Shown: piece by piece, positions 5,778-25,381 of the stretch | Layout of the letters: each line of letters starts with the position of its first letter | Numbering within the stretch: the stretch's first letter is position 1 | Origin: a virus | IMG/VR virus record: IMGVR_UViG_3300017940_000558 | Coordinates: 1 to 25,381 of that record | Length of the DNA stretch: 25,381 nucleotides | Reading direction: 5' to 3' (one strand) | The notes under the pieces: model-generated | What the model saw: the letters and a program-made list of their open reading frames with translations, nothing else | What the model was told of the DNA's origin: nothing | Databases searched by the model: none | Made by a program: the position numbers and the translations under genes

Positions 5778-5829
5778 GTCGGCGACTCAGGTCGCCGACA
5801 TGCCCGATGGCGGCTTGAGGCCGCCTCGG
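5778..5829 (+). repeat. Paired-hairpin intergenic element, copy A
   Basis: Hairpin 1 pairs GTCGGCGAC (5778-5786) with GTCGCCGAC (5791-5799) across TCAG. Hairpin 2 pairs CCGA plus GGCGGC (5804-5814, one bulged T) with GCCGCC plus TCGG (5820-5829). The Shine-Dalgarno GAAGGAG follows at 5832-5838, and the next ATG is 17 bases after hairpin 2. No T-run follows, so it is not a simple terminator. Confidence 0.8.
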
Positions 5830-5846
5830 TCGAAGGAGAAAAAGGC

Positions 5847-6245
5847 ATGAATACGATCGAATTACGTCAACAGCGGGCGGCAAAGATCGCCGAGGTACGC
5901 ACCCTGGTCGACCTGATCGACCAGGAAGCGCGTGACTTCACACCCGAAGAGCGCAGCAAGTTCGAAGCCCTGATGGGCAAGGACGGCAAGGGCGCCAAGG
6001 GCCCGGACGGTGGCGAGGTCGGGAAACTGGCCAAGACCATCGAGGAACGGGAAGCGCTGGAAGCGCACGAGCACGAGCTGATCGAGATAGCCGGGCGCAA
6101 GCCAGTCAAACCGGACGGGAAGCCCGTGACCCCCAAACAGGATGAAAAGCACATGCAGCGGTCCAAGTTCGAAGAGCTTGGAACCGTCGAAAAGGCGGCT
6201 TTCATCCGGAACGGTGGCGAAGTCGTCGAAGATCCGGCTGCCTAA
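5847..6245 (+). CDS. Probable scaffold / delta-domain-like head protein
   Basis: The product has 132 residues. The start at 5847 is chosen because GAAGGAG precedes it by 8 bases. The first 45 residues (ELRQQRAAKIAEVRTLVDL, then QEARDFTPEERSKFEALM) resemble the coiled N-terminal delta domain that acts as an internal scaffold in HK97-type coat proteins. Here it is a separate gene between the protease and the coat gene. The rest is charged and largely helical or disordered (KLAKTIEEREALEAHEHEL, then KPVKPDGKPVTPK). The role is inferred from position and from the delta-like start. The protease next door would be expected to cleave it. A separate scaffolding protein suits the P22-like coat protein that follows. 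Confidence 0.62.
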   Translation: MNTIELRQQRAAKIAEVRTLVDLIDQEARDFTPEERSKFEALMGKDGKGAKGPDGGEVGKLAKTIEEREALEAHEHELIEIAGRKPVKPDGKPVTPKQDEKHMQRSKFEELGTVEKAAFIRNGGEVVEDPAA

Positions 6246-11458: not shown

Positions 11459-11680
11459 ATGTTGAGCTATATCGGTGATGGAAGTGCGATCGTGGGGATC
11501 CCGGCGCGGGATCTGAGTGACGAGGAAGTGGAGGCGGCCGGCGGCGAGCAGCTGCTGCTGGCCAGCGGGTTGTATGCCAAACCGGTCAAGGCCGGGAAGA
11601 AAGTTGCATCGGCGACACAGGTTGCCGATGTAGCAGATGCTTCGGCGACTCATGTCGCCGAAGTGTCCGGTGGCGGCTAG
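11459..11680 (+). CDS. Small phage protein with a repeat-derived C-terminus
   Basis: The product has 73 residues. The first 42 residues (YIGDGSAIVGIPARDLSDEE and then LLLASGLYAKP) resemble a small phage protein of unknown function that I associate with head-tail regions of other siphophages. The remaining 25 or so residues (ASATQVADV, ASATHVAEVSGGG) are encoded by the hairpin repeats of element copy D, and the stop codon itself lies in the second hairpin. The protein therefore probably gained a tail when the element entered its 3' end. A strong AGAAGGAG site lies upstream. The function is unknown. Confidence 0.6.
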   Translation: MLSYIGDGSAIVGIPARDLSDEEVEAAGGEQLLLASGLYAKPVKAGKKVASATQVADVADASATHVAEVSGGG

Positions 11681-11692
11681 AAGCCGCCCCGG
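11607..11692 (+). repeat. Paired-hairpin element, copy D (double hairpin 1, partly coding)
   Basis: There are two copies of hairpin 1: CATCGGCGAC with GTTGCCGATG (11607-11630) and TTCGGCGAC with GTCGCCGAA (11641-11662). Hairpin 2 pairs CCGG plus GGCGGCT (11667-11678) with AGCCGCC plus CCGG (11682-11692), with loop AGA. The outer CCGG/CCGG replaces CCGA/TCGG of other copies, a compensatory change. GAAGGAG follows, and the tail tube ATG is 16 bases downstream. Confidence 0.8.
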
Positions 11693-11708
11693 TCGAAGGA
11701 GATAAGCC

Positions 11709-12971
11709 ATGCCAGTCAACATCAATACCAACTCAGGCTCGAAGGCCATGCGGAAGATCCAGATGGGGCTGGAGGTAACACCGGGGACGATTGTGCCGGC
11801 CACAGCAGTGTGGCGCGGACCGGGTGTCCTGACGGATAACCGCCAGATCGTTTACCCGAAGGAGGATATCGGGATCGGGCCGGGAGCGGACCGGGTGTAC
11901 ATCCCCTTCCTGGGAGCGAGCCTGGCGCTAGCCCCGATCGAGGAGAATTTCGAGCAGGGACCGTACCTGTTCGAGCTGGGTGCCAAGAAAGTAGGGACGG
12001 GCGTGGCGGACGGCGCCGGATCCGGCAAGATCTACACCTACCCGTTCTGGTACAGCCAGGCCAACAAGCCAGTGCAGGCCGGGATCGGGATCCGGACATT
12101 CGAAGCCGGCGACGACATGCACTTCGAGAAGATGGAGTTCGGCTTCGCCGACACGATCACGCTGGACGGCAAGAGCAAGGGCGCCTGGATGATGAGCGCC
12201 AGCCTGCTGGGGCGGCAGGTGACGATCGGGCCGACCTACACGGCCAGCACGATCGCCTTCACCAACACCCATACCATCACCGACTCGGCTAACGGGCTGG
12301 GGGTGTTCCCGACGGGCGTGATCGTCAAAGTGATCGGCTCGAACCTGAACGACGGCATCTACACGGTGACAACGGGTGTAGCTGGAACGCTGACCGTGTC
12401 AGAAACGACCGCGACGGAAATAGCCGGCAACACGATCACGATCACGCAGTTCTTCACCGGCGGTGGGGCCGGACTGGCTTTGCCGGTGGTGGAAGACGTG
12501 CCTTTCGGGGAAAGCAAGCTGTACATCGATGCGATCGGCGGAACGATGGGGGCAACGCAGATGGCAGGGTTGCTGGCAGCCACGCTGACGATCAAGACGG
12601 GCATCGTGGGGCAGGAAACCGCCAACGGGGCGATCACGTTCGACCACCTGGAATTCACGCCGGAAGATATCACGCTCAAGATGACCTTCCTGATGCAGAG
12701 CGGTGCGATCGCCGAGAAGAGGAACTGGCAAACCAAGGTGCCGCGGCTGGTGCGGATCCAGAGCCAGGGCAGCGCGCTGACCACGCCAGGCACGACCTAT
12801 ACCTACAAGACCCGCAACATCGACCTGGCGGGGGTGTGGGACAAGTTCGATGCGATCGGGGATCAGAACGGGGTGGACATCATCGTGGGAACGTTCCATG
12901 CCAAGTACGACGCGACGGCGGCAAAGTATTGTCAGATCCTTTACGTCAATCAAGTTGCGTCGCTTCCTTGA
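11709..12971 (+). CDS. Major tail (tube) protein with an Ig-like inserted domain
   Basis: The product has 420 residues and would polymerise into the tail tube around the tape measure. The opening (KAMRKIQMGLEVTPGTIVPA) and the repeated long strands (TLTIKTGIVGQETANGAITF, HAKYDATAAKYCQILYVNQV) fit siphophage tube proteins. Residues about 180-250 (FTNTHTITDSANGLGVFPTG, VIGSNLNDGIYTVTTGVAGT) form an extra beta sandwich of the kind displayed on tail and head surfaces. The next genes are the assembly chaperones and the tape measure protein, which fixes the identity. An AAGGAG site lies eight or so bases before the ATG, just after hairpin element D. Confidence 0.82.
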   Translation: MPVNINTNSGSKAMRKIQMGLEVTPGTIVPATAVWRGPGVLTDNRQIVYPKEDIGIGPGADRVYIPFLGASLALAPIEENFEQGPYLFELGAKKVGTGVADGAGSGKIYTYPFWYSQANKPVQAGIGIRTFEAGDDMHFEKMEFGFADTITLDGKSKGAWMMSASLLGRQVTIGPTYTASTIAFTNTHTITDSANGLGVFPTGVIVKVIGSNLNDGIYTVTTGVAGTLTVSETTATEIAGNTITITQFFTGGGAGLALPVVEDVPFGESKLYIDAIGGTMGATQMAGLLAATLTIKTGIVGQETANGAITFDHLEFTPEDITLKMTFLMQSGAIAEKRNWQTKVPRLVRIQSQGSALTTPGTTYTYKTRNIDLAGVWDKFDAIGDQNGVDIIVGTFHAKYDATAAKYCQILYVNQVASLP

Positions 12972-12977
12972 GATAAG

Positions 12978-13032
12978 CATCGGCGGCCAAGGCCGCCGAT
13001 GTGCCCGATGGCGGCTCGAAGCCGGCTCGGGC
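12978..13032 (+). repeat. Paired-hairpin intergenic element, copy E
   Basis: Hairpin 1 is an 11-bp perfect stem, CATCGGCGGCC (12978-12988) with GGCCGCCGATG (12991-13001). Compared with copies A and D, an A-T pair is replaced by G-C. Hairpin 2 pairs GCCCGA (13003-13008) with TCGGGC (13027-13032) around an imperfect GGCGGC/GCCGGC stem. AGAAGGA follows, and the ATG is 14 bases after the element. Confidence 0.8.
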
Positions 13033-13046
13033 GAGAAGGATAAATC

Positions 13047-13487
13047 ATGAAGATCGATCTGAATAAGATTTTGGCGGAGAAGATCGTGGAGCCGCTGGAT
13101 TTGGGGGAGTATCACGCACAGTTTGCGGGGCAGGTGATGCAGGTGTGGGTGAACCCGCCGATAGCGGTGCGGCAGCGCTATGCGGCGATCAGGCGGCAGA
13201 TAGAGGGGATTCGGGAGGAGATCAAGGAAGAACTAAAGGCGAAGAAAAAACTGGCAGCCGAGCGATCGCAGGAACGCGAAGCATTATCGGGCCGGCTGCT
13301 TAAAGAGCAGGCGGAGTGGCTGAGCCAGATCTGGAGCCAGGGGCCGGAAGATACGCGCATGACGGCAGAGGAAGTGGAGCGGCTGCGCAGCGAGAGCCAG
13401 GAGACCAACCCGCGCCTGTTTTCCTGGCTGATCAGCCGGACGATCCGCTTGATGGCGGAGCACCTGGGCTTTGTAAAAAACGCATAA
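13047..13487 (+). CDS. Tail assembly chaperone, short form (gpG-like)
   Basis: The product has 146 residues. It follows the tube gene and precedes the tape measure gene, the fixed place for the chaperone that coats the tape measure before tube assembly. Residues about 40-95 are strongly charged and helical (RQIEGIREEIKEELKAKKKL). No catalytic motif is expected. The end of the frame contains an in-frame A AAA AAC just before the TAA stop, so a minority of ribosomes should continue into the extended form. The start follows AGAAGGA. Confidence 0.75.
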   Translation: MKIDLNKILAEKIVEPLDLGEYHAQFAGQVMQVWVNPPIAVRQRYAAIRRQIEGIREEIKEELKAKKKLAAERSQEREALSGRLLKEQAEWLSQIWSQGPEDTRMTAEEVERLRSESQETNPRLFSWLISRTIRLMAEHLGFVKNA

Positions 13488-20471: not shown

Positions 20472-20954
20472 ATGAATCTCAACCCTGTGCAAGTGCTGAT
20501 CATTGGTCTGGTGGCGCTGGTGCTGACCGCGCTGCTGAGCTGGCTGATCGAGAAGGGCATCCCGTGGATGCTGACGGCCTTCAAGATCAAGACCAGCATC
20601 GACCTGGGGCGTTTTGTGAAGACGCTGATCGTCGGTGTGGTGGCGTTTTTGCTGGCCTGGTGGTGGTACCCGGCCACGCTGCCGGTGCTGCCGATCTGGG
20701 CGCCGCCCTTCGGGAATGAATTCCAACAATTTTGTGTTTGGATACCGATCCTGCTGGCGGCACTGAGCCCCTACGTGGGCGCGGCCATGGTAATCTACAA
20801 CTTGATCCTTGGATACATACTGGACCCGGAGAAGCGGACGCAGCTGCTGCAGTCGCTGATGAATTTGCTGTTACCAGTGCAGGCGGACCCGCCGGCGCAG
20901 CCGACACATCCGGCGATACCACCAGGGACGGTTACACCACCACCCACCCAATAA
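20472..20954 (+). CDS. Holin-like three-span membrane protein
   Basis: The product has 160 residues. The ATG at 20472 follows AAGGAGAAAAGGAAT. Hydrophobic segments lie at about 5-26, 49-66 and 89-115, with a charged DPEKR stretch after the last, then a proline-rich tail (PPAQPTHPAIPPGTVTPPPT). Size, topology and position beside the endolysin fit a holin that releases the lysin and times lysis. No holin-family motif is specific enough to name a class. It is the last gene of the late operon, and a terminator follows 17 bases after its stop. Confidence 0.65.
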   Translation: MNLNPVQVLIIGLVALVLTALLSWLIEKGIPWMLTAFKIKTSIDLGRFVKTLIVGVVAFLLAWWWYPATLPVLPIWAPPFGNEFQQFCVWIPILLAALSPYVGAAMVIYNLILGYILDPEKRTQLLQSLMNLLLPVQADPPAQPTHPAIPPGTVTPPPTQ

Positions 20955-20971
20955 AAGTATAACGATGATAC

Positions 20972-21001
20972 AAAGAGCCTCCAACGGTTTGGAGGCTCTT
21001 T
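20972..21001. terminator. Strong intrinsic terminator between late genes and integrase
   Basis: A perfect 13-bp stem, AAAGAGCCTCCAA (20972-20984) with TTGGAGGCTCTTT (20989-21001), has a 4-base loop and continues into TCTT on the plus strand. The A-run at the other foot gives T-rich sequence on the minus strand too. It therefore probably stops both the late operon and the convergent integrase operon, whose stop codon is 5 bases away. Confidence 0.85.
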
Positions 21002-21005
21002 CTTG

Positions 21006-22067
21006 TTAAGCGGCAGCCGGCCGGAGCTGCTTGATCAGCTCGAGCAGCTGGTCGAGCTTGGCGGCGGTGGAATCGATGGCGGCGGGGGTGTTCAAGCTGC
21101 CGATAATGCGGCGGACGTCGTCGTCGACCAGGCGGCCGTAGATGCTATCCGTGATAGTGAGGGAGGAGTGCATGACGTTCTGACTGACGGCTTTCCAGTC
21201 GGCCATGTTGCGGGCACGCTTGAGGGCGTAGAGCACGTGGCCGTGGCGAAGTTTGTGTGGGGAGAGATAGGGCACGCCGGCCAGGGCACAGACCGGGCGC
21301 AGGTCGCGCTCGACCAGATCGCCGCGGCCGAGATGCGGATCGGAAGTAGCGGTGATGGTGGTGCTGTCACGGGTGAGGGTGGCGTACCAGAGCGAGTCAG
21401 GCGGAAGCAGGCGGACGCGCCGGTCCCATTTTTCTACGATCGTAAGCAGTTCGGGGATCTCGAGCAGGAAGGTGACGGCGGCTTTGCGGTTCTTGGTACG
21501 GACGCCCAGCTCAGGCAACTGGCGGATCTCCCGGCGGGCGATATCGACGCAGGAGACCGGCAGGGTGGCGAGGGCATCCGCGCGCATGCCGGACAGGAAG
21601 AGCATGCAGGCGGCGACCTGGCCGCGCTCCTGGCGAAGCGTTTCCGTGGGCACATGGGCGATCTTGAGCACGTCTTCGACAGTGTAGGCTTTGTGCTCGA
21701 CCAGGTGCGACTCGAGCCGGGAGCCGCGCGGCGGTTGGAGCTGCTCGACCCAGATAGGCCGGATGGCGTGGTAACGCTGCGGCCACTGGTCCCGGGCCCA
21801 GGTGAAAAAGGCCCGGCAGGCTTCGAGACCTTTCTTGATCGAACTGGGGGAGAGCTTACCCTTGCCATCGAGGCGGGCGGTCAGGATGTAGGTCGGCAGG
21901 CCGGGGCTGATCTGGCGGGATCTGGGCAACGGGGTTTCATCCGCCCAGGTGAGCAGGTGGCGCAGGTGGGCACGGTTGCGGGCGACGGTCTCGGGGGAAT
22001 TCTGGCGGACGTCGCTGCAGTAGCGGATGTATGCACGCACGTCTAGGTAGTTCTGTCTGTTGATCAT
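21006..22067 (-). CDS. int: Tyrosine recombinase (phage integrase)
   Basis: The enzyme recombines the phage and bacterial attachment sites. The 353-residue protein has an N-terminal SAM-like domain (about 1-110) and a catalytic domain with the expected residues: Arg162 in SGMRADALATL, Lys192 or Lys195 in RTKNRKAAV, His271 and Arg274 in SPHKLRHGHVLYAL, His300 in VMHSS and the nucleophile Tyr310 in SIYGRL. All catalytic positions appear intact, so it should be active. A helical tail at 330-350 follows. It overlaps the upstream DNA-binding gene by four bases (ATGA) and so is translated with it. It lies beside tRNA-Pro, the expected target. Confidence 0.92.
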   Translation of the reverse strand: MINRQNYLDVRAYIRYCSDVRQNSPETVARNRAHLRHLLTWADETPLPRSRQISPGLPTYILTARLDGKGKLSPSSIKKGLEACRAFFTWARDQWPQRYHAIRPIWVEQLQPPRGSRLESHLVEHKAYTVEDVLKIAHVPTETLRQERGQVAACMLFLSGMRADALATLPVSCVDIARREIRQLPELGVRTKNRKAAVTFLLEIPELLTIVEKWDRRVRLLPPDSLWYATLTRDSTTITATSDPHLGRGDLVERDLRPVCALAGVPYLSPHKLRHGHVLYALKRARNMADWKAVSQNVMHSSLTITDSIYGRLVDDDVRRIIGSLNTPAAIDSTAAKLDQLLELIKQLRPAAA

Positions 22068-22495
22068 GGCTTCACACTTTCCGGGATAGTGTGAAGACGG
22101 GCCCGAAGACGGTTTATTTGCGTACCGCAGACAGGGCAGATGGCCTGCAGGAGCTCAAGGTAATGATTGACGGGTTTGAGGGTGGGGGTGATCAGCTCGA
22201 CCGGAAGATTGCAGCGCATGCACCAGGCCTGCCCATCCTCCAACGATTGGCGTTTGGCGCGGCGCTGGGTGATGGTCTGCCTGGCCCAGCTGGCGAATGT
22301 CAGGCCGTGGATCCAGACCTTGCCACGCGCGTCGACAACGGTGGGGGCGCCGGCCGGAATGTAGGAACGGTAAACCGTGTCGGGATGGACGCCGATCTCT
22401 TCAGCGATCTCGGCGGGTTTGTAGAGCATATCCAACAGGCGGGACAGGCGGACGATCTGGGTGTGGCGCAGGATGGGCTTTCTTACCGGTATCAT
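22064..22495 (-). CDS. Helix-turn-helix plus zinc-ribbon protein, integrase partner
   Basis: The product has 143 residues. Residues about 26-45 (KPAEIAEEIGVHPDTVYRSY) form a clear helix-turn-helix. Cys92, Cys95 (WCMRC) and Cys120, Cys123 (CPVCG) could bind zinc as a ribbon. It is the first gene of a two-gene operon with the integrase, overlapping by ATGA. This suits a recombination directionality factor, a regulator of the integrase or a structural partner of the recombination complex; I cannot tell which. Typical excisionases are shorter and lack the zinc ribbon. The Shine-Dalgarno AGGAG lies nine bases before the ATG inside a small hairpin. Confidence 0.7.
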   Translation of the reverse strand: MIPVRKPILRHTQIVRLSRLLDMLYKPAEIAEEIGVHPDTVYRSYIPAGAPTVVDARGKVWIHGLTFASWARQTITQRRAKRQSLEDGQAWCMRCNLPVELITPTLKPVNHYLELLQAICPVCGTQINRLRARLHTIPESVKP

Positions 22496-22504
22496 AGGGC
22501 ACGA

Positions 22505-22558
22505 CTCCTTGGGCAGGAGCCTTGCGGAGCGACAGCGGTAGGGGCCGCATGCGCAAGG
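22505..22558 (-). promoter_or_regulatory. Structured leader that hides the ribosome site of the int operon
   Basis: On the minus strand CTCCT (complement of 22515-22519) can pair with the Shine-Dalgarno AGGAG (complement of 22505-22509) across a 5-base loop. Just upstream, CCTTGCG and CGCAAGG (22552-22558 and 22520-22526 on the plus strand) form a larger arm with a GCGG/CCGC inner stem. The region between the tRNA and the operon (22496-22615) holds no gene. Confidence 0.45.
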
Positions 22559-22615
22559 ATCTCGCCTGATAGGATGTGCCCAATTCCACCTCCCAGTAAG
22601 AAAAGGGCAAAAATG

Positions 22616-22645
22616 TCGGGGCGGGCGGATTTGGACCGCCGACCT
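22616..22645. other. Probable phage attachment site at the tRNA-Pro 3' end
   Basis: Tyrosine integrases commonly use the 3' part of a tRNA gene as attB, and here the integrase operon starts 120 bases from the tRNA 3' end. The core should be within the T-arm and acceptor stem. The second att copy lies outside this window, so the exact core and crossover cannot be read. Confidence 0.45.
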
Positions 22646-22690
22646 CTGCGTCCCGAACGCAGCGCTCTAGCCGGACTGAGCCACGCCCCG
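22616..22690 (-). tRNA. tRNA-Pro (anticodon CGG)
   Basis: A complete cloverleaf of 75 bases is seen on the minus strand. The acceptor stem CGGGGCG pairs with CGCCCCG. The D-arm is GCTC/GAGC. The anticodon stem CTGCG/CGCAG holds the loop TTCGGGA with anticodon CGG. The variable region is AGGTC. The T-arm GGCGG/CCGCC has loop TCCAAAT. The discriminator is A, and no CCA is encoded. A promoter lies directly upstream. The integrase operon follows in the same direction without a visible terminator, so tRNA transcription could run into it. Confidence 0.93.
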
Positions 22691-22705
22691 AATAAGCAAG
22701 CCGGG

Positions 22706-22734
22706 ATTATAACTGTCCACCTCCAATTTGACAA
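22706..22734 (-). promoter_or_regulatory. tRNA-Pro promoter
   Basis: On the minus strand, TTGTCA and TATAAT are separated by exactly 17 bases, with the -10 box about 15 bases before the tRNA 5' end. This is a near-consensus housekeeping promoter. It also overlaps the upstream control region of the divergent gyrA. Confidence 0.75.
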
Positions 22735-22745
22735 GCCGTTTGCGG

Positions 22746-22751
22746 TATAAT
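22746..22751 (+). promoter_or_regulatory. Candidate -10 box of the gyrA promoter
   Basis: A perfect TATAAT lies 68 bases before the gyrA ATG. TTGACA at 22728-22733 is a perfect -35 hexamer, but it is only 12 bases away, too short for a normal sigma-70-type promoter, and it overlaps the -35 of the divergent tRNA promoter. The real -35 may be a weaker sequence, or supercoiling-sensitive geometry may be involved. Confidence 0.45.
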
Positions 22752-22774
22752 TCACCCGTTAATTCGAATACCCA

Positions 22775-22801
22775 TAAGGGCACAGCTGTGCTGTGCCCTT
22801 A
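22775..22801 (+). promoter_or_regulatory. Perfect hairpin in the gyrA leader
   Basis: TAAGGGCACAG (22775-22785) pairs with CTGTGCCCTTA (22791-22801) as an 11-bp stem with a 5-base loop. It ends a few bases before the GTGAGGA ribosome site. No T-run follows. It may tune gyrA mRNA stability or initiation. Confidence 0.5.
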
Positions 22802-22819
22802 CCGCGTGAGGAAATAATT

Positions 22820-25381
22820 ATGGTAGAACCAGATCCCACAAGCAACCTACCCGAGCCCGTCAAGCAAGTCATCGGCACCGTCCAAATGGCAGACATTGAT
22901 GAGACTATGCGCACGGCGTACCTTGACTATGCCATGTCTGTCATTGTTGCTCGCGCACTGCCGGATGCCCGGGATGGATTAAAACCCGTCCACCGGCGCA
23001 TCTTGTACGCCATGCAGGATATGGGCATCCGCGCCAATTCTGCTTTCAAGAAATCCGCCCGTATCGTCGGCGAAGTACTGGGAAAATACCACCCGCACGG
23101 CGACTTGGCCGTCTATGAATCGATGGCTCGCATGGCGCAGGATTTCTCCATGCGCTACCTGCTTGTGGACGGTCAGGGCAATTTTGGTTCGGTGGATGGC
23201 GATGCCCCGGCTGCAATGCGCTATACCGAAGCCCGCCTGCATAAAATGGCCGAAGAAATGTTGGCTGATCTCGAAAAGAACACGGTTGATTTCACCGATA
23301 ACTTCGATGGTTCCCTAAAGGAGCCGCTGGTACTGCCCTCCCGCCTGCCCAACTTACTGCTCAATGGGTCTTCCGGTATCGCCGTAGGAATGGCGACCAA
23401 TATCCCGCCGCACAATCTAAAAGAGCTGGCCGCAGCTCTTATATATCTCATCGATAATTACGATACGATGGAAGAAGTCCCCATCGAGTACTTGATGAAA
23501 TTCATTCCCGGGCCGGATTTTCCCACCGGCGGCATTATTGTGGGTACGGAAGGCATCGAAGCCGCATACGGTTCAGGCAAAGGGCGGATAGTCCTGCGTG
23601 GCAAGGCGCATATCGAGGAGATGAACGGCAACCGTTTCCGCATTGTCATCACAGAAATCCCCTACCAGGTCAACAAATCCACATTGATCGAACGCATCGC
23701 CGATCTGGTCCGTGACGAAAAAATCGATTCCATCTCTGACTTGCGGGATGAGTCTGATCGCCGCGGCATGAGCATCGTTATCGAACTGAAGCGTGGATCC
23801 CAGCCTAAAAAGGTGCTTAACCAGCTCTACAAGTACACCGCCCTGCAATCCACCTTTGGTGTCCAGATGCTCGCACTTGTTGATGGCGAACCCCGTCTAT
23901 TACCACTAAAGCGGGCATTGCAAATCTTCATCGAACACCGTCAGAATGTTCTCACCCGTCGTACCCAATTCGACCTGGATAAAGCCCGTGCGCGCGCTCA
24001 TATCCTGGAAGGCCTCACCATCGCCCTGAACAACCTGGATGCTGTCATCCAGACCATCCGTGAATCCCCGGATGCTGAAGTTGCCAAAGAGCGACTGATG
24101 AAACGCTTCAAATTGTCCGATCTCCAGGCCCAGGCCATCCTCGATATGCAATTGCGCCGTCTGGCCGCCCTCGAACGCCAGAAAATTGAGGATGAATATA
24201 AACAAATTAAACAGCAGATCGCCCAACTTGAGGACCTGCTGGCCCACCCCAAGAAAATCCTGGCTCTCATCCAAGATGATTTGCGTGAACTCTCCGAAAA
24301 ATATGGTGATGAAAGACGCACACACATCGCCGTTGAGGCAGTGGAAAACTTGAGCGAATCGGACCTCGTGCCGGACGAGGCCGTACTTATCTCGCTGACC
24401 GCCCAAGGCTACGTCAAGCGCGTTGCGGCGGCTGCCTATCGCTCGCAGATCAAGGGAGGCAAGGGAGTGACCGGCCACTTGACCAAGGAAGAGGATGAAA
24501 TCCTGACCCTCATCCCGGCCCGTTCGCTTGATACCATGCTGTTTTTCTCAGACAAGGGTAAGGTCTATTCTGAAAAGGTCTACCAGATCCCGGATGCCGA
24601 CCGGGCTGCCAAAGGCATTCCATTGGTGAATGTCCTGTCGCTGGATGCGGGAGAATATATCACTGCCGCAGTCTCCGTACCGAACTTCGATACGGTGGAA
24701 TATATCACGCTGGCTACACGTACAGGAAAAATAAAGCGGATGGCTCTTTCTGAATTGGCGGCTGTCCGTCCCTCCGGTATCATCGCAATCGGATTGGAAG
24801 ACGGGGATGAACTGGGCTGGGCGCGCCTGACCCATGGCGATAACGAAATCATCCTTGTCACCGAACAGGGACAGGCTTTACGATTTGCCGAGGATAAAGT
24901 CCGTTCCATGGGACGCACGGCAGGTGGCGTGACCGGCATTCGTCTGGGGACCAAAGACAAAGTCACCAGCATGGAAGTAATCGAAAAGGATGGGGATTTA
25001 CTACTGGTGACGACGCAAGGCTATGGCAAGCGTACGCTTCTTTCAGAATATCCAGTCAAAGGTCGTGCAACCGGCGGCGTCCAGACCATTGCCCGGGACG
25101 CGGTCGACAAGATTGGCACTATCACTTCCGCCCGTGTCGTCCAGGAAGCCGATGATTTGACAATCATCACAGCCAATGGCATGGTCCTGCGCACCAAAGT
25201 AAAGGATGTCAAGCAAGCCGGGCGGGCCACCCGTGGTGTCCACTTGATGGACATCAAGGAAGGAGATAAGGTGGCGTCCATCGCCCGCATTGCTGCCGCC
25301 GAACTTAAAAAAGTCGGGGTCAACCCCAATGGTGAACCTGCCGTTAAGCCAGGCAAACAATTTGAATTGCCAATTAAATAG
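22820..25381 (+). CDS. gyrA: DNA gyrase subunit A
   Basis: GyrA cuts and rejoins DNA in the GyrA2B2 complex, which adds negative supercoils. The 853-residue protein is complete and of normal length; the ATG at 22820 follows GAGG, while an upstream GTG-type start would lie in the leader hairpin. The catalytic tyrosine is Tyr135 in [10 protein letters not shown]. The quinolone-binding region reads [19 protein letters not shown], with Leu96 and Glu100 at the positions of E. coli Ser83 and Asp87. The C-terminal wrapping domain carries the GyrA box QIKGGKG (543-549), which separates it from topoisomerase IV ParC. It is a host chromosomal gene beyond the prophage end and is divergent from tRNA-Pro. 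Codon use is less uniformly GC-rich than in the phage genes. Confidence 0.96.

Follow-up and report, generated by a model that had tools for sequence, protein, structure and literature searches.

An arm-less tyrosine integrase of Chloroflexota phages and its winged-helix partner look like a jointly controlled module for integration and excision

What does an unusual DNA-binding protein do when its gene stands immediately upstream of a phage integrase gene, and what keeps both genes low once the phage has integrated? The window, by which we mean the whole stretch of DNA analysed, is a complete IMG/VR virus record of 25,381 nt. In it, genes that we take from general knowledge to be terminase-, portal-, tail- and lysis-like precede the integrase gene (int) and a smaller frame (ORF1); a tRNA-Pro follows, and beyond it lies a long frame that we presume to be DNA gyrase subunit A. 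Given this succession of phage genes, int/ORF1, tRNA-Pro and gyrase frame, we take the window to be the right-hand part of a prophage plus adjoining host DNA, the other att site lying outside the record. Our preferred reading, which we consider somewhat probable, is that ORF1 serves an arm-less integrase as a Xis-like architectural partner, the two being translated together and limited by a folded leader. The features on which the argument turns are the following.

21006-22067, minus strand: int, tyrosine integrase of 353 aa, with core-binding and catalytic domains and without an arm-binding domain
22064-22067, minus strand: ATGA, overlap of ORF1 stop and int start, from the open reading frames
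22067-22495 (with stop from 22064), minus strand: ORF1, winged helix-turn-helix (HTH) and four-Cys ribbon, 143 aa
22496-22615, minus strand: leader from attL to ORF1, which carries hairpins 1 and 2 in relatives; the window's version is divergent
22503-22521, minus strand: local hairpin GGCUCCU/AGGAGUC over the Shine-Dalgarno sequence, from folding prediction
22505-22509, minus strand: Shine-Dalgarno (SD) AGGAG of ORF1, from the sequence
22571-22574, minus strand: UCCU, alternative long-range partner of the SD, from folding prediction
22586-22589, minus strand: GTGG, 26 bases past the end of the inferred att core, from motif position
22615-22690, minus strand: tRNA-Pro (CGG), from ARAGORN; Rfam tRNA 61.2 bits
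22706-22734, minus strand: sigma-70-like promoter TTGTCA-17-TATAAT pointing into ORF1-int, a consensus match only (11/12)

Int is a simple, i.e. arm-less, tyrosine recombinase made of core-binding and catalytic domains only. Pfam places SAM_1 at residues 11-93 and Phage_integrase at residues 130-312 of the window's protein; among 14 int members Phage_integrase is present in all 14 and SAM_1, at E 0.01, in five, and none of the arm-binding families of Pfam is found in them at E 0.01. The structural model of int (pLDDT 84.6) opens directly with the core-binding helix (4-19), and lambda Int aligns to it only from lambda residue 73-74, at int residue 3-4, so that the N-terminal domain of the lambda protein has no counterpart here. 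R162, K192, K195, H271, R274, H300 and Y310 are invariant in the 14 rows, and we take them from general knowledge to be the catalytic R..K..HxxR..H..Y residues. The solved structures closest by E-value are XerA and archaeal Xer proteins, followed by Brujita Int (5vfz) at rank 7.

ORF1 had been described in the initial annotation as a protein with a helix-turn-helix and a zinc ribbon, and this description stood up well. An AlphaFold2 model built on 51 aligned sequences has a mean pLDDT of 93.5 and shows a winged HTH at about residues 11-83 (helices 11-19, 27-34 and 38-45, strand 60-63, helix 64-80), followed by a four-Cys ribbon at about 89-132, a part with five strands. Met23, Tyr25, Glu29, Ala31, Pro51, Gly64 and Trp70 are invariant over the 51 rows, as are Cys92, Cys95 and Cys120; Cys123 is at least 90% conserved, and the ORF1 of L045 has a single CxxC. 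The DUF5679 profile is matched at E <=0.01 by 38 of the 51 family members (best 1.7e-9), and the window's ORF1 alone scores 14.6 bits (E 0.037), short of the cut-off of 27. By profile and by its CxxC...CxxC pattern the ribbon fits the DUF5679 zinc ribbon, and it would presumably bind zinc. Among the 17 host genomes, many have open frames 525-805 aa long that the ORF1 family profile also matches, over its ribbon part alone. In two of the host proteins (G011 C36 and G017 C27; L138 and L139), matched with i-Evalues of 8.8e-10 and 2.3e-8, the ribbon forms the N-terminus; both are topoisomerase I-like, and we take them from general knowledge to be topoisomerase I. DUF5679 ribbons, including the N-terminal one of Anaerolineae topoisomerase I, share the CxxC...CxxC pattern, which in ORF1 stands behind a winged helix.

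The structural neighbours of this winged helix are mostly MerR-type winged helices; they include a PICI packaging protein, BldC, Nu1, SoxR, RacA, P2 4lhf and the excisionase RdfS (8dgl), the last with Z 5.5 and rmsd 2.4 over 52 positions. Since all these matches have Z <8, and proteins without a role in recombination (BldC, SoxR, packaging proteins) are among them, they support the fold class and nothing finer. As a fold class, then, ORF1 is predicted to be a winged-helix DNA-binding protein of the MerR/Xis type. Profile matches of the window's ORF1 to this end are weak: phrog_664 at E 0.00025, Pfam HTH_23 at E 0.0036 (under that family's cut-off) and the excisionase family phrog_66 at E 0.01, the latter matched by 6 of the 51 family members. 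ORF1 had no match at E 1 in 50,697 records of isolated phages, no convincing match by sequence among solved structures and, with Foldseek, none at E <=0.001 in the PDB and viral models. A library of defence systems returned only mad1 (E 0.025), over a short HTH stretch, and this candidate was rejected.

The initial annotation had counted lack of the gene pair in relatives among the results that would speak against it, and in the samples searched the pair proved constant. In an even draw of 400 genomes from the phylum of L031, ORF1 (E <=1e-15) was found in 10, and these were also the 10 with the int family (E <=1e-40), three of them known beforehand, when scoring among the best 10 (ORF1) or 5 (int) candidates per genome; in all 10 carriers the two matches lie at most ~110 nt apart. 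ORF1 loci numbered 26 in a scan of viral contigs and 17 in genome contigs, 16 of the latter with titles naming Chloroflexota taxa and one titled Bacteroidetes, which has the same leader as viral locus L048. An int match accompanies ORF1 in 42 of these 43 loci, the exception (L062) being on a contig that ends 773 nt past ORF1. Searching viral contigs for int first gave 38 loci, 11 of the testable ones on contigs that the ORF1 scans had missed, and ORF1 was present in 33/33 testable loci (E 1e-31 or better); left out were L085, L106 and L107, cut near int, and the deletion phages L076 and L077 (records G004 and G005), which are without ORF1. The int alignment that served as query came from ints adjacent to ORF1, which favours finding the pair and confines the coverage to the closer ints. 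ORF1 lies upstream of int in 32 of the 33 loci and downstream in L098, and the pairing persists with 0.2-2.8 kb of other DNA in between. The overlap by ATGA (22067-22064) in the window is as first annotated. Among 41 loci, a count that contains near-duplicate rows and some int starts that are match starts rather than sure start codons, 31 have overlapping genes (1 nt or more), 20 of them with an overlap of exactly 4 nt, and in the remaining 10 the genes are 1 to 2,324 nt apart. The fixed association of ORF1 with int and the missing arm-binding domain are the strongest facts that we have.

Around the pair we made some side observations. Two metagenome phages, L005 and L006 (records G004 and G005), match the window's phage at 99.8-100% identity wherever they align with it; the match ends within int (window 21561, about residue 170), and from there they run into an XRE repressor-like gene cut at ~residue 70; bases 1-78 of G005 repeat near its opposite end, as in a circle. 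We read them as deletions of the lysogeny module, comprising the end of the repressor, attP, ORF1 and the N-terminal half of int, and possibly as obligately lytic variants. The idea that ORF1 and the N-terminal half of int are host DNA, the phage having inserted into int, was rejected, because in relatives ORF1-int, with the att core before it, is phage-borne and because a deletion explains the circle-like contigs. Three dispersed copies of 71-86 bp, 78-84.5% alike, sit near gene borders of the window (5779-5862, 11642-11711 and 12980-13064), and G005 has them too. By eye, a second tyrosine-recombinase-like gene lies near the pair in L048 (-1462 to -445 before attP, minus strand) and in G008 (28801-29796, minus strand).

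The prophages of three host genomes tell where these phages integrate. At both ends they carry the 3' part of tRNA-Pro as a direct repeat, the copies lying 39.8, 38.3 and 37.9 kb apart, with the intact tRNA-Pro at the ORF1 end; at the far end, after the repeat, a hairpin and a T-run are seen by eye in two of the three (G010 and G011). From these attL/attR repeats we infer that the 3' part of tRNA-Pro is also the att core in the window. The window's arrangement (group A, 17 rows) forms one clade with support 97/97, and in its viral contigs a fragment resembling the 3' end of tRNA-Pro lies 69-157 nt upstream of ORF1. In other members a tRNA (or T-arm motif) follows int or stands upstream in the opposite orientation. 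Because the leader-bearing arrangement is one clade, its tie to tRNA orientation counts as one event. With attP just upstream of ORF1, tRNA-Pro reads into ORF1-int in the prophages of this clade; in the window, no promoter match other than TTGTCA-17-TATAAT was found in 22400-22800. Before attP and in the same direction stand, by eye, what we take to be XRE-type repressors in 6 of 11 contexts (2 under 3 kb) and HIRAN-like genes in at least 5 of 11. Genes of one or both kinds were noted before attP in L046, L051, L053 and L058 and at attR of G010-G012. Repressor genes in this position would put ORF1-int behind the repressor region in the circle and behind tRNA-Pro in the prophage, which suggests that, in the circle, one transcript may cover both int and the repressor region.

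Between the att core and ORF1 lies the leader, for which the initial annotation had claimed a hairpin pairing the SD with an upstream CTCCT. CUCCU (22519-22515) does stand upstream of the SD AGGAG (22509-22505) across a loop of 5 nt, and the predicted probability of this local pairing is 0.98-1.00 when the transcript includes the first ORF1 codons. With the leader cut at +12, long-range pairing of the SD with UCCU (22574-22571) dominates the prediction (0.77). The window's SD is thus predicted to be hidden in both folds. The motif alone is weak, since 4 of the window's 44 AGGAG have a CTCCT 3-20 nt upstream. The fold of 111 nt is better than 200/200 shuffles (z -3.76), and the probability that the SD is paired (1.00) is above the value of 0.91 that marks the 90th percentile in 150 control genes. 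Taken alone, the 100 nt before the ATG have z -1.5, the weakest value of group A, and with the SD fixed and the leader (cut at +12) shuffled, 47 of 100 shuffles hide the SD too, so that SD pairing in the window is not significant against SD-keeping shuffles (0.47 of them as high). A covariance model of hairpin 2 built from group A without the window gave six hits to E 10, none of them at the window's leader, its best hit in the window lying elsewhere at E 0.017; in 33 other loci, to E 1, it hit only L041 and L033, away from the ORF1 leaders. The window's leader is without a U-run. Rfam found no known leader family in 20900-23000, where only the tRNA scored above its gathering score; STnc230 at 20934-21007, whose 29.9 bits fall short of the cut-off of 50, was taken as chance. 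A terminator scan found no standard terminator in L030 7700-8100 or in window 22400-22800, the relatives' hairpins having long loops beyond the limits of that scan. The window's leader is a divergent, weaker member of the leaders of its clade.

Among the relatives, the 100 nt before the ATG have a mean z of -4.5 in the 17 loci of group A. The mean is +0.4 in the six loci placed in the group with a tRNA downstream of int (>2 kb away in L039, a tRNA-Val in L033), -1.3 in the other 23 loci and -0.4 in 80 control genes. Strong leaders are not confined to group A, since five of those 23 loci (L044, L064, L070, L099 and L108) have z < -3. As a separate observation, L034, L040, L041, L042, L059 and L060 have a tRNA or T-arm motif after int, facing int, and leaders of ordinary folding (z -0.6 to +1.1). 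Arm swapping among 15 of the 17 group A leaders, L056 and L082 being too short for it, makes all three stems weaker: hairpin 1 goes from -17.2 to -7.4 kcal/mol, hairpin 2 from -34.5 to -23.3 kcal/mol and the SD stem from -16.6 to -12.5 kcal/mol. In each of the five tests the mean was unreached by any of 20,000 permutations. In these tests the window ranked first of 15 for hairpin 1, hairpin 2 and the SD stem, and fifth for the apical part; its rank for the SD stem supports this pairing in the window. When 14 leaders other than the window's are compared, 7 of 11 pairs in the apical helix of hairpin 2 are changed on both sides, giving a covariation score unreached by 500 shuffles, which ignore relatedness. 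U-runs of at least 5 occur in the last 55 nt of 11 of the 17 leaders, against 4% of 80 control genes.

The mean probability that the SD is paired is 0.79 in group A and 0.58 in 150 control genes, a difference with p 1.4e-4; the two other groups, of 4 and 8 loci, have means of 0.55 and 0.57; values of at least 0.75 occur in 9 of the 17 group A leaders and in 40 of the 150 control genes. L054 (0.08) and L058 (0.50) are exceptions within group A. This probability is often high in shuffles too (mean 0.73), and for most relatives singly it is not significant against SD-keeping shuffles. Ten of 16 relatives offer as best partner of the SD a CTTC/CTTT/CCTT-like stretch lying 63-87 nt before it, a region into which the window's UCCU also falls; in L082 the partner is a local TCTCT, and the remaining relatives are mixed. 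The pairing with CTCCT claimed at first remains a prediction for the window, but the exact partner is not common to its relatives. The hairpin lock draws on the window's predicted fold and on the covariation seen by arm swapping, but the held-out covariance model misses the window's leader. Taken as a prediction, the folded leader is well supported for the clade and moderately for the window. By eye, an ATG with an SD-like sequence recurs at the 5' arm of hairpin 2 (L030, L031, L032, L046, L047, L050, L051, L053 and L055), and in L030 the short frame that it opens ends on the ORF1 start. Such a frame is possibly a leader peptide; no constant frame or stop was found for it among the leaders.

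The same region carries motifs that might act as DNA. Of the 17 leaders, 11 have GTG 26-27 bases past the end of the core, namely the window's and those of 10 of 16 relatives, and 5 of 14 left flanks have TAGAACAAA or a near form ~75 nt before the core. The 4-mers on either side cluster by position more than in rotated controls (0/150), the top 4-mer on the right side (CAAA) touching the core; a test of CGTG (0/3,000) used a motif picked after being seen. As these phages share ancestry, position-fixed motifs suggest accessory sites on both sides of the attP core and are not proof of them. A search for direct repeats as arm sites gave no consistent set. One might argue that the hairpins are features of attP DNA, such as inverted repeats or protein sites, and that the hidden SD is a by-product. 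The fixed place of GTG in 11 of 17 leaders would then reflect phasing at the DNA level, and most leaders indeed have, by eye, no T-run after hairpin 1. Yet, the stems change sequence with pairing kept, as expected of a folded strand, and the SD is paired more often in group A than in controls, and we think this explanation rather unlikely.

The layout recalls the Xis-int modules found in temperate phages and in integrative elements, lambda xis-int being an example, in which a winged-helix gene also lies directly upstream of a tyrosine integrase gene, with overlapping genes and an att site in a tRNA gene. It differs from them in that int is without an arm-binding domain, and ORF1 differs from Xis by its C-terminal four-Cys ribbon and is larger than a typical Xis. 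ORF1 shares with recombination directionality factors the gene linkage to a tyrosine integrase; the arm-binding domain reported for the integrases that go with Xis is absent from int. The parts drawn on here of a survey counting 27 phages with simple and 410 with arm-binding recombinases (PMC8138268) link mobility to the arm-binding domain and report Xis proteins, in the integrative conjugative elements surveyed, only with arm-binding recombinases, as an association in integrative elements rather than a strict definition. This tie argues against a classical directionality factor. If ORF1 is Xis-like in function, ORF1-int is an apparent exception to it, and it looks like a consistent one, arm-less yet with a Xis-like partner. 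Brujita Int resembles int in having core-binding and catalytic domains only, and its simple recombinase drives both excision and integration according to the same parts of the survey, in which the surveyed elements with simple recombinases are without Xis; the int family, by contrast, was paired wherever it could be tested in the samples searched, deletion phages apart. A zinc ribbon described in the part drawn on of PMC4701971 belongs to serine integrases. Among the open-access papers listed in our literature searches we recognised none describing the ORF1-int pair.

The interpretation given in the initial annotation is partly supported: a putative directionality factor or co-factor of the integrase remains the best reading of ORF1 and is sharpened by the arm-less int. 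We propose that ORF1 would be the obligate DNA-binding partner of int, most likely resembling an excisionase or recombination directionality factor. Its MerR-type winged helix might bind and bend DNA beside the att core, and its ribbon might add a second contact, to DNA or to Int. ORF1 would thereby give int the accessory control that other phage integrases obtain from their own arm-binding domain and Xis, and the overlapping stop and start would allow the two proteins to be made together. In the window's clade, integration would place the pair directly behind the host tRNA-Pro, where the folded leader, by hiding the SD of ORF1, might keep it low in the lysogen; in many relatives a U-run in the leader, as in terminators, might add to this.

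Other roles of ORF1 must be weighed against this one. It could be a co-factor required in both directions, the missing arm-binding module of the integrase and no directionality factor. The absence of that domain from int, the arm-like position-fixed motifs on both sides of attP and the gene overlap, which suggests coupled synthesis, would agree with this; but in the cited parts of the survey the Brujita simple recombinase drives excision and integration with no such partner named, and the winged helix resembles Xis rather than the strand-rich arm-binding fold (PMC8138268), which leaves this role rather doubtful. A bolder version, which we hold to be unlikely, splits arm-binding off the integrase: an obligate, co-translated Xis-like protein with a winged helix and a topoisomerase I-type ribbon would both replace the domain and set direction, under a leader RNA shielding the operon from the tRNA gene that the phage has entered. 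Also quite improbable is that ORF1 only regulates transcription of its own operon, as repressor or activator, with no part in recombination: its MerR-type winged helix, its place as first gene, the position-fixed DNA motifs in the leader and the tightly autoregulated KplE1 intS at attL (in the part drawn on of PMC2951348) would fit, but a regulator is expected to be replaceable, int without ORF1 occurred in the samples searched only in two deletion phages, and ORF1 is kept when up to 2.8 kb from int or downstream of it (L098). In the same source, KplE1 intS likewise lies beside a tRNA gene, with a regulatory region overlapping attL, and a protein autoregulates its promoter, whereas for ORF1-int the evidence points to a folded leader. 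One difficulty for a Xis-like partner is that, ORF1 being first in the operon, Int would rarely be made without it, which is odd for a pure excision factor.

With the Xis-like partner as our preferred reading, ORF1-int of Chloroflexota phages looks like a jointly controlled module through which the phage enters the host chromosome and leaves it again. It is a natural system in which to ask whether directionality needs an arm-binding domain. How an integrase stays off behind a tRNA promoter is a general question for tRNA-integrating phages, which the layout of att site, tRNA and leader poses here, and the folded leader offers a testable answer to it.
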